Of a DNA stretch of 24,231 bases, positions 15,677-24,231 are shown piece after piece (within the stretch, counting starts at the first letter, position 1; each line of letters opens with the position of its first letter). The position numbers and the translations under genes were made by a program. The stretch is from a virus, in the IMG/VR virus record IMGVR_UViG_3300009008_000247, positions 1-24,231 of that record; one strand, 5' to 3'. Under the pieces are notes generated by a model. That model ran no database searches. It was not told where the DNA came from and was given only the letters and a program-made list of their open reading frames with translations.

Positions 15677-15871
15677 ATGTCTAACACAAAAAAAACTGGT
15701 AGTTATTTAGCAACTATAGTGATGATTGAGAATGAAATAAAAAGAGGAATGCTATTGCTTGAAAGAATACAAAAGGATCTGAATGAATTAAAGATAGCAA
15801 TGGCAGCGAATGTGCCTATTGATGATGTTGATACTGATAGGTGGGCACTATTAGAAAGGAAGTACAGATGA
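15677..15871 (+). CDS. Small helical protein of the plus-strand island (64 aa)
   Basis: First gene after the plus promoter with TAAGGAG five bases before ATG. Mostly helical (SYLATIVMIENEIKRGMLLL, ERIQKDLNELKIAMA), probably a coiled coil, ending DRWALLERKYR. No family recognised. Its TGA overlaps the next ATG (ATGA at 15868-15871), so it is co-translated with the GIY-YIG gene and may be its partner or just a leader gene. Confidence 0.6.
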   Translation: MSNTKKTGSYLATIVMIENEIKRGMLLLERIQKDLNELKIAMAANVPIDDVDTDRWALLERKYR

Positions 15872-16548
15872 AGAGATTTAACATTAAAGTACCTGTATTA
15901 GATTATGCAGGGAAAGCAACAGGAGAAACTTATATGAAGAATTTTACTGAAGAAGAATTAAAAGAAAGGAATAAGAACTTACCCTCAGATATGAAAGGCT
16001 GTAAGAAGTGTCATCAGGTTCTACCAATTATAGATTTTGGTAGTGACGTTCGTCAGCCTGATGCTCTCAATAGATATTGTAAGCCGTGTCATCGTAAGAA
16101 TTGTTCAAAGGCTAGATCTAAAAGAAAGAAACCAGCAGTGTATCAGTTGTTCTTTACTGATGGCAGCACCTACATTGGTTCCACTACTCAGAACTTTAAC
16201 GATAGGTTAGCAGTTCATAGGGCTAAGGTCGCTAAGAATATACATACCAATAAACTATTTAATTACTATGAACCTGAAGATATTACAGGTCGTGTTCTTA
16301 TGTTTATTGATAAGGAGCGAGATCTCCGTATGAATGAATATGCTTTGATTAAACATTTCAAATCTGTTTACGGAGCTAAGTGTCTTAATTTTGTAACCTA
16401 TAAGGAGGTAGACTGTGAAGTCGAAAGATCACAAATCGAGGTCAATGGAATCTTGGATGAAAATGGAGGAGAGGTTTGTAATGGAGTTGGACAAACGAAA
16501 GAAGTGGAATTGGAAGTCGAAGATAGAGGTGACGGAGTTCTTTTATGA
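15868..16548 (+). CDS. GIY-YIG endonuclease-like protein with zinc-ribbon (226 aa)
   Basis: A zinc-binding region, CKKCHQVLPIIDF (C45, C48) and RYCKPCHRKNC (C71, C74), precedes the nuclease domain at about 90-176. The GIY-like strand is VYQLFF (91-96) and the YIG motif is TYIGST (101-106). NDRLAVH carries the conserved Arg (R113), NEYALIKHF the metal-binding Glu (E157) and LNF the late Asn (N174). Such genes are usually mobile homing endonucleases cutting DNA. ATG 15868 is preferred over GTG 15841 because of AAAGGAA upstream and the ATGA overlap. Residues from about 177 on look non-conserved and coincide with another frame (16415-16624). Free-standing, not inside an intron. Confidence 0.75.
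   Translation: MKRFNIKVPVLDYAGKATGETYMKNFTEEELKERNKNLPSDMKGCKKCHQVLPIIDFGSDVRQPDALNRYCKPCHRKNCSKARSKRKKPAVYQLFFTDGSTYIGSTTQNFNDRLAVHRAKVAKNIHTNKLFNYYEPEDITGRVLMFIDKERDLRMNEYALIKHFKSVYGAKCLNFVTYKEVDCEVERSQIEVNGILDENGGEVCNGVGQTKEVELEVEDRGDGVLL
16401..16408 (+). promoter_or_regulatory. Ideal internal ribosome site before GTG 16415
   Basis: TAAGGAGG followed by six bases (tagact) and GTG, inside the GIY-YIG reading frame. It is the best plus-strand ribosome site in the window and supports an out-of-frame gene. Confidence 0.6.
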
Positions 16549-18040: not shown

Positions 18041-18179
18041 ACTTCTTCCCTCTTTTCTTTGAGATATTAATAGCAGCTTCCTGTCTTAGAGCAGCCGCTC
18101 TACTAGGATGCTTACCTAATTTCTCACCAGTCTTCTTAGATACGAGACTATACTCTCCCTTTTTAATCTTCTTTATCAT
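18027..18179 (-). CDS. Small basic protein (50 aa)
   Basis: ATG at 18177-18179 overlaps the end of the lipoprotein gene by 17 bases, and the stop overlaps the start of the 198-residue gene. The product is highly basic: MIKKIKKGEYSLVSKKTGEK, then LGKHPSRAAALRQEAA and a KKRGKK end. 'Y-x-V-x-S-K-K-T-G-x-x-L-G-x-x-x-S-x-x-x-A' is a pattern I associate with tiny phage proteins often encoded among structural genes; their role is unknown. Confidence 0.55.
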   Translation of the reverse strand: MIKKIKKGEYSLVSKKTGEKLGKHPSRAAALRQEAAINISKKRGKKYGKA

Positions 18180-18510
18180 CTTCTGGATCTCCTAAACATC
18201 CTGCATCTAATCCAATGCAGCCATCACAGAATGAAATCATACATGTCTGTGACCATCTCATATTACAGCACTCAGTTCTAGTATACTTTTCACAGACAGG
18301 ATAAGATAAGTAGTGAAACAAATCAAATTGATCACAATCCATATCCTGAACGATATTAATCTCTACTGTTGGTACTTCAACTTCAATAGGTTCTGTCTCT
18401 ACTTGGATAGTACAGCCCTCTAAGAGCCACCCCATTGCAACCAGAGACAGAACCAAAATGATATTGAGTATCTGTAATCTAATTAATGATCTGTTATCTA
18501 ATAGTTTCAC
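18163..18510 (-). CDS. Cysteine-rich predicted lipoprotein (115 aa)
   Basis: Residues 1-33 form a lipoprotein signal: basic start, hydrophobic stretch NIILVLSLVAMGWLLEGC, with LLEGC as lipobox-like site (Cys33 would be lipidated). A Val/Glu-rich linker (VETEPIEVEVPTVEI) leads to a domain with about nine Cys, including MDCDQF, YPVCEKYTRTECCNM and SFCDGCIGLDAGC. That suggests a disulphide-bonded periplasmic or outer-membrane domain. GTG start overlaps the previous TAG (TAGTG). Possible roles are o-spanin, superinfection exclusion or envelope remodelling. The many Cys are unusual for an o-spanin, and no i-spanin partner is obvious nearby. Confidence 0.6.
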   Translation of the reverse strand: MKLLDNRSLIRLQILNIILVLSLVAMGWLLEGCTIQVETEPIEVEVPTVEINIVQDMDCDQFDLFHYLSYPVCEKYTRTECCNMRWSQTCMISFCDGCIGLDAGCLGDPEDDKED

Positions 18511-18872: not shown

Positions 18873-19172
18873 TTAAGATGTTTCTTCTTCTAATTCTTCT
18901 TCTATCTCGTCTTTGTCTGTTGCAATTATAATATTAATTGCTGCACCATGTTTAGGATGTTGCTTAGATTCTGCATACCATGGTGGTCTGTGTCTTTGTT
19001 CGGGAAGTAAACCTCTACTTTTTAAGAATTCTAAAAGCATCTCTTCTAGTTTTTGTTCCCTAATTATTTCTTGTCTTCTTTCCTCAAACCTTTTTCGTGC
19101 CTCGTAGTGCTCATCTTCAGCCTGAGAAAATTTCTTCCACTCTTCTTGTTCTTTTCTAGTAAGTTTACTCAT
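18873..19172 (-). CDS. Highly charged coiled-coil protein (99 aa)
   Basis: ATG 19172 is chosen because it overlaps the upstream TGA (ATGA); the frame extends to 19187 but has no better start. The sequence is a long charged helix: LTRKEQEEWKKFSQAEDEHY, then ARKRFEERRQEIIREQKLEE. A polar Pro/His segment and an acidic tail (DKDEIEEELEEETS) follow. Placed right after the holin-like gene; a spanin-like or regulatory function is possible, but there is no membrane anchor. Function unknown. Confidence 0.55.
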   Translation of the reverse strand: MSKLTRKEQEEWKKFSQAEDEHYEARKRFEERRQEIIREQKLEEMLLEFLKSRGLLPEQRHRPPWYAESKQHPKHGAAINIIIATDKDEIEEELEEETS

Positions 19173-19354
19173 CTTCCATGTCTCCATTTTGTTGCAATGT
19201 CTACGGCAGCTTGGCTACCAATGTAGACTAAGGCTATAGCAGTCCAGTCTTCTGAGGCTAAGTTACCTGTAACTACAAATAAACTAGTGGCTGTAAGGAA
19301 TACGAACAGCTTACGACTAAACCACTTAGTTATTCCTGTGTCTACATATCCCAC
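19169..19354 (-). CDS. Holin-like two-helix membrane protein (61 aa)
   Basis: Two hydrophobic segments, LFVFLTATSLFVVTG (about 16-30) and WTAIALVYIGSQAAVDI (about 37-53), are separated by a short acidic turn and flanked by basic ends (WFSRK and KWRHGR). Size and topology fit small holins. GTG start overlaps the stop of the 1151-residue gene (TAGTG). No endolysin is adjacent in this window, so the lysis role is an inference from topology. Confidence 0.5.
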   Translation of the reverse strand: MGYVDTGITKWFSRKLFVFLTATSLFVVTGNLASEDWTAIALVYIGSQAAVDIATKWRHGR

Positions 19355-22300: not shown

Positions 22301-22809
22301 ATATAAATAGCATCATACTCCTTGCCCATGATTATTCGGATCTGATCTTCATAGAATGTAAAAGCAGGGTCTGCTCTTAGTGAGGCAACACCATAGCCCA
22401 TTACAAATCTAGTTGCTTTTGCTCTTAGATTACCACTAGTTGCTAAGTCATCAATAATCTGAAATACAGAAGCATGTTGTCCTTTTTTACCTCTAGTAAG
22501 AATTAAAACATTTTCTGGAATAATTCCTAGATCTGATAACTTCTGTTCAGAAACTCCCCCTGCAGTACCTCTATACATCATAGTATCAGGAGTAAGGGGC
22601 TTGGGCTTAAAGGGTTCGTTAGCTTGGATTGCCATGGTTACAAAGTTATTGATGTAGTCATGATAATGAGCTAACTGTTCTCCTGGCAGATCTAGAAGTT
22701 TATAGTAAAGGCTCGAAGCCTTATCAGACCACACCTCTGAAAAGGCAGGATTTTCTACAATGTCTAGTAGTTTCTCTAGAGTCCTATGATATTTGGGATC
22801 TGAAGGCAT
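19354..22809 (-). CDS. Giant proline-linker protein, probable virion/internal protein (1151 aa)
   Basis: Largest gene in the window. Residues 1-320 are mainly helical (FTFYEDQIRIIMGKEYDAIY). A hydrophobic helix, GILGILIAAALPLL (326-339), could contact membranes. Related proline linkers follow: VSIIDDPPQIPSTGGPPVLG (396-415), VSLVDDPPESPGLGGPPIED (512-531) and a shorter ASGPPVLGTK (721-730), separating charged helical blocks. Residues 946-974 carry a 10-residue LPPPxPKGTxR repeat. The C-terminal part has hydrophobic Gly/Ala stretches (GPAGAAIMIPDF, YPGIGMGVGGIV). This modular, elongated make-up fits an ejected internal virion protein, but no lytic domain is seen. TAATG joins it to the upstream gene. 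Confidence 0.6.
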   Translation of the reverse strand: MPSDPKYHRTLEKLLDIVENPAFSEVWSDKASSLYYKLLDLPGEQLAHYHDYINNFVTMAIQANEPFKPKPLTPDTMMYRGTAGGVSEQKLSDLGIIPENVLILTRGKKGQHASVFQIIDDLATSGNLRAKATRFVMGYGVASLRADPAFTFYEDQIRIIMGKEYDAIYMQTSKRVLGELFDLRDGRFYSPSKQLAESYEKSGPDRLEKRKLWFENILNANMYVEGILKDPKYTPEVLSDLVTVFDSTPAEARELGALENIMAAETRLTEQGIIERPMRKPGMTGHPEARVVGFIPKAPPVGAELERLKRAAKSLGIKLPKKITKGILGILIAAALPLLDEEEQEAVGGLAIAGGIPPGGKPPKDVIPEPPVPEWGSRDVPRLMPTPEELAELEGVSIIDDPPQIPSTGGPPVLGKGDLDPNEKGITQQERERRIYNNQERARLRAQGYDPDNLPAEKQAFGLMVRHIEQQLETLQRQDLATGEMVDLTFDEEDALRARLPEGHPMREGITVSLVDDPPESPGLGGPPIEDKPKTVGHIIKTKGRAPKKSVFVKVFQAVNGRSPSKAELKELVKVWKSLNNRDSFELKEIIETFANDPDPATRVAVKQLDMALLVDEYDIAEKARIGKQKRSRVSAVTGRETETAKKIGDLREELARTEAAKATMSGRGEDIKLADTNIKRIKARILRLLKSERGAVEIPSWLQGASGRLHGDWTDVQEVASGPPVLGTKFPTLTEEDILELKAEDARRRVLPREEGTIADDPLTPEEARRVKEQERIIQAAKDAKRRQMVRGGKLEGEDFEGSKTGAERRVERASRRAARSVGQAKRSTFNLKGMGNAPEYLRRLIGPAYGPTDNAYMHRTLEEIMRLVRADNPQADPRLIAEFVQAIEDTAAQATGRAPQQLEWLAGGPDDPPLWMRNLQAMEEEALRRRGQFVALPGGKGQDLPPPRPKGTPRLPPPPKGTKRLPPPPPGTGVGAPIPKGATIETYPRLVGGKRYTTKPTGIHRPVAGEGALKGLGRTMGPAGAAIMIPDFIKSLIESGDWKEAAQAIQEFGPAIYPGIGMGVGGIVETDPAALAQRYAEDKPVPFGTTRSEKLLADAAAAKSMAERSGYEVTEEFGSGAVMGKPTEQRILLSDEEAMAEALELMGIK

Positions 22810-23024
22810 TATTTATTTGCCATCCTTTCTAGTCTAAATGTAATAGTTTCTAACTTAATAGCTGTTAGTTCTAGTCTATGCACAACCTGTTTTATTTCTG
22901 AAACGTCAGCCTCTAAGTTTTCTAGCCTCAGTTCTGTTGAAGCCTTTATATATCCAATAGAGGAAGCCCATGTAATAGCTATAACCATAAGGGCTAATGC
23001 ATGTTTTCTTAACCATTCACTCAT
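22809..23024 (-). CDS. Membrane-anchored coiled-coil protein (71 aa)
   Basis: The N-terminal transmembrane helix (HALALMVIAITWASSIGYI, about 8-26) is followed by a heptad-repeat helix (LRLENLEADVSEIKQVVHRL, LTAIKLETITFRLERM). This is the layout of small phage membrane anchors such as Rz-like i-spanins, though the domain is short for an i-spanin. Starts in an ATGA overlap with the protease gene and ends in TAATG with the giant gene. It could tether the protease or act in lysis; unproven. Confidence 0.55.
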   Translation of the reverse strand: MSEWLRKHALALMVIAITWASSIGYIKASTELRLENLEADVSEIKQVVHRLELTAIKLETITFRLERMANK

Positions 23025-23713
23025 TTTTCAATTCCTTCAATTATTTTTTCAATTGCATTGTAGTGTGGTGAATATGAAACAAAAGGAAACTTATGGTTTA
23101 CTGACATGATCATTCCAACCATCTCTCCTTGATTGTCAAATATTGGAGAACCTGAACTGCCACCAACGGCTGGGATTGTAAAAATCATTGCATATGACTT
23201 AAAGCCTGAGTATCTTCCCTCTAAAATAGGAACATAATTTTTAGCAGCTATTCCTGCTGGGGCTGCTATATTATAAAACTTTTCTCCATATGATGGTCCT
23301 GAGCTTCTTAAGACGATTGGTGTCTGTCCTAATCTTTGTGTAACCATAATACATAAATCATTTTCTGCATCTAAACTGTGTACTGTAGCCTTAAATGTTA
23401 TGCCATTCGAATCTAAGATTGAGTATACAACTGACATATTTTCAACACCCAGTTGTGTTTTAGCATAGTCTATATCACACACATGACCTGCAGTTAGGAT
23501 ATAAGTTTTAGCTAGTAAGGTACCATGTTTTACAATTGATCCACTAGCACTAGAAGCTTTCTCTGTTATAATACATTGTTCTTCTGAGCAGTGCTTAAGC
23601 GTAAAGTCTGCTGTAATTTTAACAAATGCTTTACGAGGTATTTCTACACCCCCACAACCAATTAGATTCATTATAAAGAATAGAGCAATAATTGCTGTGA
23701 CTAGGTGACGCAT
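23021..23713 (-). CDS. Trypsin-like serine protease, predicted lipoprotein (230 aa)
   Basis: Signal peptide with lipobox-like end: MRHLVTAIIALFFIMNLIGC, Cys20 followed by GG. The mature domain has the chymotrypsin/trypsin-fold triad: His77 in ILTAGHVC, Asp119 in AENDLCIMV and Ser187 in GGSSGSPIFD (GxSGxP with Ser in the oxyanion motif). Several Cys (42, 47, 79, 121) may form disulphides, fitting an exported protein. It would cleave proteins in the periplasm or at the outer membrane. The four-base gap to the upstream gene and ATGA overlap with the next place it within the operon. An exported lipoprotein protease is unusual for a phage; prohead proteases are cytoplasmic and of other folds, so that role is unlikely. 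Confidence 0.85.
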   Translation of the reverse strand: MRHLVTAIIALFFIMNLIGCGGVEIPRKAFVKITADFTLKHCSEEQCIITEKASSASGSIVKHGTLLAKTYILTAGHVCDIDYAKTQLGVENMSVVYSILDSNGITFKATVHSLDAENDLCIMVTQRLGQTPIVLRSSGPSYGEKFYNIAAPAGIAAKNYVPILEGRYSGFKSYAMIFTIPAVGGSSGSPIFDNQGEMVGMIMSVNHKFPFVSYSPHYNAIEKIIEGIEK

Positions 23714-23717
23714 GGGC

Positions 23718-24231
23718 TTACTTCCCCTTCCCCTTTCTCTTTATTTGTTTTACAAGTTTCTGATATACCTCATCGAAGTGAAGCTTTTCTAACATAATTT
23801 CTCCCTCAACGATCTTATCAAGCTCGACAATACGAGCATTAATATTCTCTCTATCTTGTCCTGTAAGAGAGACAGCAGGATCATCTAACATTTCTCGAAG
23901 GTCACCAGTTAAAGAAGCTTTCCATTCTTTCTCTTTATTTCTCCAATACCACTTAGCTCTAGTACCTACATCCTGTGGCTTAAAGCCTATACCTGTCATA
24001 CGTCGCATACCCCACTTAATTAAACTTTCTTGTGGTGCACCTATTTCATTCTCTGCCCATTTTCTAGTAGTGAATGCTCTAGACTTTTCTGGAAATAAAG
24101 CAGCCATTCCAACCTCTAGACTTCTAGCTGCTGTACCCCCCATAACTGCAGTTGCAACGGTTTGAAATAACCGAGCCTTATTGACTGTCTTACCTGATCG
24201 TTCAGCTTCTTTAAGAGCTATAGCAGCATCC
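23718..24231 (-). CDS. C-terminal part of a larger protein, probably virion (171 aa visible)
   Basis: The frame is open from the right edge (base 24230) to a TAA at 23718, so the gene is truncated and the ATG at 24143 is internal. Visible sequence: an Ala-rich helix (DAAIALKEAERSGKTVNKAR), AARSLEVGMAALFPEKSRAF, a Trp/Lys-rich stretch (RAKWYWRNKEKEWKAS), an acidic helix and a strongly basic end (LVKQIKRKGKGK). No domain recognised. It is helical and Ala-rich, like ends of internal virion proteins, and the next gene downstream is the protease after four bases. Confidence 0.6.
   Translation of the reverse strand, partial: DAAIALKEAERSGKTVNKARLFQTVATAVMGGTAARSLEVGMAALFPEKSRAFTTRKWAENEIGAPQESLIKWGMRRMTGIGFKPQDVGTRAKWYWRNKEKEWKASLTGDLREMLDDPAVSLTGQDRENINARIVELDKIVEGEIMLEKLHFDEVYQKLVKQIKRKGKGK

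Follow-up and report, generated by a model that had tools for sequence, protein, structure and literature searches.

The window analysed here, a stretch of 24,231 nucleotides from an uncultivated, probably marine phage, encodes a serine protease of the trypsin fold that carries the signal of a lipoprotein. We consider it rather probable that this protein is a late-acting envelope protease anchored at the outer membrane, and we conjecture, with more doubt than confidence, that its specific role is the cleavage of the host envelope to assist lysis and release.

The protease gene lies at 23021-23713 on the minus strand, starts with ATG and specifies 230 residues with a Trypsin_2, HtrA-like protease domain. 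The protein scored 58.2 bits against the Pfam Trypsin_2 profile (PF13365; gathering cut-off 27.6, E=2e-15) and, with a score above the cut-off and an intact His-Asp-Ser triad, it belongs to this family. The catalytic codons were confirmed directly in the window sequence and assigned to His77 (TAGHVC, 23483-23485), Asp119 (NDLC, 23357-23359) and Ser187 (GGSSGSP, 23153-23155), all on the minus strand, as are two cysteines placed two residues after the His and the Asp respectively, Cys79 (23477-23479) and Cys121 (23351-23353). The triad and both cysteines are invariant in all 76 distinct sequences of the family. Since the triad is preserved in 76 of 76 homologues at 26-60% identity, the observation is not due to chance and the gene is a real coding sequence. 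The full triad including Ser187, on which the original prediction was based, was therefore located, and the homologues in phage genomes have kept it. A second cysteine pair, C42/C47, occurs in 71 of the 76 sequences, and the proposed disulfides C79-C121 and C42-C47 probably stabilise the enzyme.

The N-terminus of the protease, MRHLVTAIIALFFIMNLIGC, consists of a charged n-region followed by a hydrophobic helix and by the lipobox L-I-G-C20, the sequence pattern of a type II signal peptide (residues 1-19) with Cys20 as the lipid-attachment site (23654-23713, minus strand). In the AlphaFold2 model the hydrophobic helix covers residues 2-17. A pattern search recognised a lipobox in at least 66 of the 76 distinct members and inspection by eye added a few more, corresponding to about 90% of the family. 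The residue at position +2 is Gly in the window, which thus lacks the inner-membrane Asp signal, and is A, S, V, G or similar among the lipobox-bearing members, Asp being found in none. As this residue is never Asp, the Lol rule predicts sorting to the outer membrane, and anchoring there with the enzyme facing the periplasm is the expected default location. The domain match and the LIGC20 lipobox are in good agreement with the earlier proposal of a phage-encoded, exported lipoprotein protease; of the two sites then considered, periplasm or surface, the former corresponds to the default prediction and surface exposure is not indicated. Coat processing at release, another role put forward at that time, is unlikely for an exported lipoprotein, and a function as virion-processing or prohead protease was ruled out by the type II signal peptide and the unrelated fold.

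The AlphaFold2 model, calculated with 16 homologues as alignment, showed a mean pLDDT of 92. When it was compared with the PDB by Foldseek, the protease domains of HtrA1, DegS and DegP occupied the top ranks with TM values of 0.61-0.68 over the query, identifying the chymotrypsin-like protease domain of the HtrA/Deg group (S1C). A profile search of PDB sequences agreed in returning HtrA proteases as best matches, and a single-sequence search gave V8 protease (E=0.0012). No PDZ domain was found by Pfam or in the secondary structure of the model, the protein terminating at residue 230 just past the protease domain, and for this reason the enzyme was not classified as an HtrA protein. The residue preceding the nucleophile is Ser186, where trypsin has Asp194, which serves zymogen activation in that enzyme. 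Because a PDZ sensor is missing and Ser186 replaces Asp194, knowledge of the fold suggests that the protease is likely active as made, without a trypsin-type zymogen switch.

The family was extended from one relative by an alignment-led search that returned 18 loci and by a second round that yielded 308 encoding contigs, 80 of which were kept. Relatives are thus encoded by at least 308 IMG/VR contigs, a figure obtained with a scan that is guided by short peptide patterns and may overlook divergent copies. All 16 aligned members matched PHROG 9683, annotated as "protease". When four members and a consensus were compared with GenBank and isolated phages by tblastn, no match was obtained, for the consensus even at E=10, a result that excludes close relatives only, since a profile search of isolated phages still reached remote matches in Rhizobium phages AF3 and P10VF. 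The view that this is not a standard phage part therefore holds for isolates as far as tblastn is concerned, and has to be corrected in that PHROG 9683 exists and AF3/P10VF encode a remote HtrA-like enzyme. Literature searches retrieved no description of this protease family. Among about 85,000 GTDB genomes two contigs were matched and only one of them, phage-like, holds a close homologue; the other match, a planctomycete ORF of 743 residues, is a different kind of trypsin and was discarded. The genuine copy is located on a contig of a Methylococcaceae metagenome-assembled genome (L106), which is probably a phage contig, as its neighbouring genes match those of a viral contig (L029). In 274 genomes of the same class this copy scored 1.7e-45, and all others reached 3.7e-15 at best, for the most part in ORFs of HtrA length. 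A host-derived gene residing in a prophage was rejected for now, the L106 contig being phage-like and the remaining bacterial matches weak and mostly HtrA-length. Since isolates and GTDB yielded no close non-phage copy and the class genomes otherwise gave weak, mostly HtrA-length matches, the family appears essentially viral as far as the searched data reach. PADLOC matches to the anti-phage defence proteins LmuA and RT-Protease_XI were weak and spanned just the common trypsin fold, and a defence function was dismissed. Four loci (L058, L070, L083 and L084) contain the protease gene twice, and in the three where the intervening space is covered two short minus-strand genes lie between the copies.

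The window and two further contigs covering the region, L002 and L012, represent short-tailed phages of about 35 kb with a P22/SU10-like portal. Directly upstream of the protease, separated by a 4-nt gap, is a large virion-type gene for a protein of about 1350 residues, whose C-terminal part occupies 23718-24231 on the minus strand, continues beyond the window and shares 83% and 57% identity with the C-termini in L002 and L012. Downstream follows a gene for a 71-residue protein (22809-23024, minus strand), whose start shares 4 bases (ATGA) with the end of the protease gene, so that the two are translationally coupled. The protein is predicted to have an N-terminal transmembrane helix and a periplasmic coiled coil, weakly resembles Rz-like spanins (phrog_739, E=0.0044) and is 50-52% identical in L002 and L012, the latter copy matching families of unknown function only. 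The 4-nt gap upstream and the ATGA overlap downstream suggest that the protease is very probably co-transcribed with both genes, within a same-strand run of virion genes joined by 4-nt junctions, and no excess of sigma-70-like promoters was seen around this part of the window. The order of the three genes is kept in L002 and L012, which bears out the synteny with the 71-residue membrane protein that had been suggested as a check; searches with this protein and with the C-terminus of the large one found no group members beyond these two. The 71-residue protein is confined to the three contigs and is absent from the protease loci of T4-type phages.

In a maximum-likelihood tree the window, L002 and L012 grouped together (100/100) inside the T4-type family, as sister to L014/L015/L016 (99/86; L014 entered as its second copy, L033). 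Because the trio nests within this family, the simplest reading of the sequences is a single transfer of the gene from a T4-type phage to the short-tailed lineage, which would imply shared hosts. The L002 copy shows a deletion of about 29 nt (L002:6141-6180) with a frameshift between residues ~57 and 69, which is either a genuine loss or an assembly error.

Other genes of these phages were also recorded. A second predicted lipoprotein of 115 residues (18163-18510, minus strand; LLEGC), with many conserved cysteines and no family match, is kept in L002 and L012. A protein of 61 residues with one transmembrane segment (19169-19354, minus strand), present in all three contigs at 59-65 residues, has a holin-like look and no PHROG or Pfam match. 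A gene resembling endonuclease VII and homing endonucleases (15841-16548, plus strand; phrog_1035, 1.8e-9) is oriented opposite to the virion genes. Terminase, portal, capsid and large virion-type genes are present in two relatives of 34.5 kb (G001 and G008; L110-L113), where we noticed no recognisable genes for replication or lysis; the majority of their genes have no family match.

A different arrangement was found in most relatives, which come from phages of the T4 superfamily: of 17 contigs that were tested, 12 encode T4 gp23, most of the larger contigs among them. The protease gene of about 57 out of 79 loci is isolated in its orientation, with its neighbours on the other strand, and diverges from a PhoH-like gene (phrog_2765, 1e-116); a ClpP-like protease gene is often close by. 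This company, together with the nearest folds being HtrA proteases, might indicate envelope quality control, a stripped-down DegP/HtrA that would act as a proteostasis helper, clearing misfolded periplasmic proteins so that the host envelope stays functional during heavy late synthesis. We regard this as rather unlikely, however, since the PDZ domains that give HtrA its substrate selection and regulation are absent, the enzyme is predicted to be lipid-anchored, and its profile is distinct from that of host HtrA, as seen in the values reported above for the bacterial genomes.

In the 80 nt ahead of the protease, CTANTTA is present for 42 of the 57 phoH-divergent copies, as compared with 12% of other genes and with 4.9 of 57 after dinucleotide shuffling. 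Of 10 contigs, 9 have it before the scaffold gene resembling gp22, its frequency being 0-5% for most other gene families, and it is also found ahead of phoH and of a tubulin-like gene. We conclude that CTANTTA is a promoter-like operon-head motif common to the protease and a late gene, and perhaps not strictly late, because phoH and the tubulin-like gene carry it too. In many loci the start codon follows after just about 11 nt, and a nearly leaderless mRNA would result. At operon heads of T4-type contigs, for example upstream of gp22 in L114-L122, the promoter-like motif is CTATTTAT/CTAGTTAT, which differs from the T4 late promoter TATAAATA. A forward TATAAATA considered as late promoter of the protease was rejected, as its reading on the other strand is part of CTATTTATA, belonging to phoH. 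The tubulin/TubZ-like GTPase gene lies near the protease at L049:8096-9247 and in nine further loci, and CTANTTA heads 8 of these 10.

Other neighbours varied among loci. A small ORF of 60-106 residues stands head-to-head with the protease on the phoH side in 25 of the 57 T4-type loci (including L034, L036, L039, L050, L051, L062, L069, L074, L085 and L097). These ORFs mostly bear a signal or lipobox, and several of their families have a common C-terminal strand motif like YTMQVILYDxxGKxKExLTLKP; their product is a possible partner, inhibitor or substrate of the protease. The substrate might then be a phage-made exported partner, either these proteins or the 71-residue protein, with no important host substrate. 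The export signals and common motif of many small ORFs, and the translational coupling in the window, are consistent with this idea, but 32 of the 57 loci have no such neighbour and the partners vary among phage groups, making it very unlikely in our opinion.

An exported SLT lytic transglycosylase gene (PF01464; 7.6e-25 and 3.7e-18 for the two tested) lies within about 5 kb of the protease in eight loci (L042, L044, L049, L056, L067, L075, L076 and L093), adjoining it in L042; CTANTTA was not found before the SLT genes of these protease-bearing relatives. In two loci a gene on the same strand directly downstream of the protease (L049:5918-6550 and L067:5999-6631) encodes a TonB-like protein with a transmembrane segment, a Pro/Lys-rich stretch and a TonB_C match (6.7e-22).

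These two TonB-like genes might hint at TonB-dependent receptors, and thus at receptor inactivation, in which the lipoprotein would clip the phage receptor at its periplasmic plug or barrel, causing exclusion of superinfecting phage or aiding release, in that receptor bound to debris could no longer capture virions. There is precedent for phage lipoproteins that act on receptors from the periplasmic side, T5 Llp among them (PMC9586334); the place of action would be the same, the means proteolysis. Llp and Cor, however, are small and non-enzymatic, late-type transcription would come late for stopping secondary infection, and a single enzyme family is found across very divergent phages whose receptors would differ; we therefore consider this unlikely. 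Receptor removal, lysis aid and envelope-stress roles are not separated by sequence, and the late-type transcription speaks for functions late in infection rather than for early exclusion.

According to our preferred reading, late envelope remodelling, the protease would be exported by Sec, lipidated at Cys20 and anchored in the outer membrane of the host on its periplasmic side, where it would be active without a switch, having neither PDZ sensor nor zymogen mechanism. Its synthesis would be late in both phage types: in the window's phage the gene is part of the virion/late operon, and the T4-superfamily relatives would transcribe it from a promoter-like motif of its own that scaffold gene 22 also has. 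Late cleavage of host envelope proteins would then remodel or weaken the outer membrane, so that release is made easier. Late remodelling is favoured over quality control and receptor inactivation by timing, anchor, the transmembrane/coiled-coil neighbour and the nearby SLT genes, none of them decisive. A lysis cassette is at most putative, because none of the genes in the window's phage group could be recognised as endolysin, holin or spanin; moreover, the spanin resemblance of the 71-residue protein is very weak and limited to three contigs, and the SLT genes lack CTANTTA. The apparently disrupted copy of L002, one of three close relatives, also speaks against the preferred reading.

A bolder and quite improbable version is that the late-acting lipid-anchored protease cuts proteins linking the outer membrane to the wall, replacing or assisting spanins in many uncultivated marine phages, the gene having moved between unrelated phage types sharing hosts. 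If true, this would be a degradative third route across the outer membrane. The known phage routes across the outer membrane, those of spanins, do not involve an enzyme. A widespread family of catalytically intact, presumably lipid-anchored proteases, found in our searches among environmental phages alone and located behind promoter-like signals that virion genes share, suggests that marine phages commonly remodel the host envelope by enzymatic means, a step so far unstudied; the protease offers a gene, a catalytic residue and a lipidation site on which this may be tested.

Compared with known systems, the protease shares with HtrA/DegP/DegS (MEROPS S1C) the chymotrypsin-like fold, the triad order and the periplasmic setting; it differs in the missing PDZ, in the predicted lipid anchor instead of a transmembrane or soluble form, in the V8-like GxSGSP where HtrA has GNSGG, and in the invariant H+2/D+2 cysteines of its family. 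The V8/glutamyl endopeptidases (S1B) provide the best single-sequence PDB match and the same GxSGSP active-site motif, whereas V8, a secreted Gram-positive enzyme with no lipid anchor, has low identity to the window protease. PHROG 9683 and the HtrA-like protein of phages AF3/P10VF (Pootjesviridae) are likewise phage-encoded Trypsin_2 proteins, and in AF3 the gene again stands by itself, its neighbours being on the other strand, but the AF3 protein lacks the lipobox and the HVC/DxC cysteines and matches the family profile at only 3.4e-4. Two-component Rz/Rz1 spanins may resemble the present pair in that a late gene for an outer-membrane lipoprotein overlaps a transmembrane/coiled-coil gene; spanins, however, use a topological, not degradative, route through the outer membrane (PMC6139136), and the 71-residue partner is short. 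The window lipoprotein, being an enzyme, was not classified as a spanin, and does not correspond to a non-enzymatic fusogenic o-spanin in a holin/endolysin cassette, no endolysin or holin being recognised nearby. T5 Llp and Cor are likewise phage lipoproteins at the periplasmic face of the outer membrane, where Llp blocks its receptor by binding (PMC9586334); Llp is small, acts by binding only and has no catalytic domain, in contrast to the 230 residues and catalytic domain of the window protein. The protease is thus a phage-confined form of the HtrA-like trypsin fold, predicted to be lipid-anchored and distinct from spanins and Llp.
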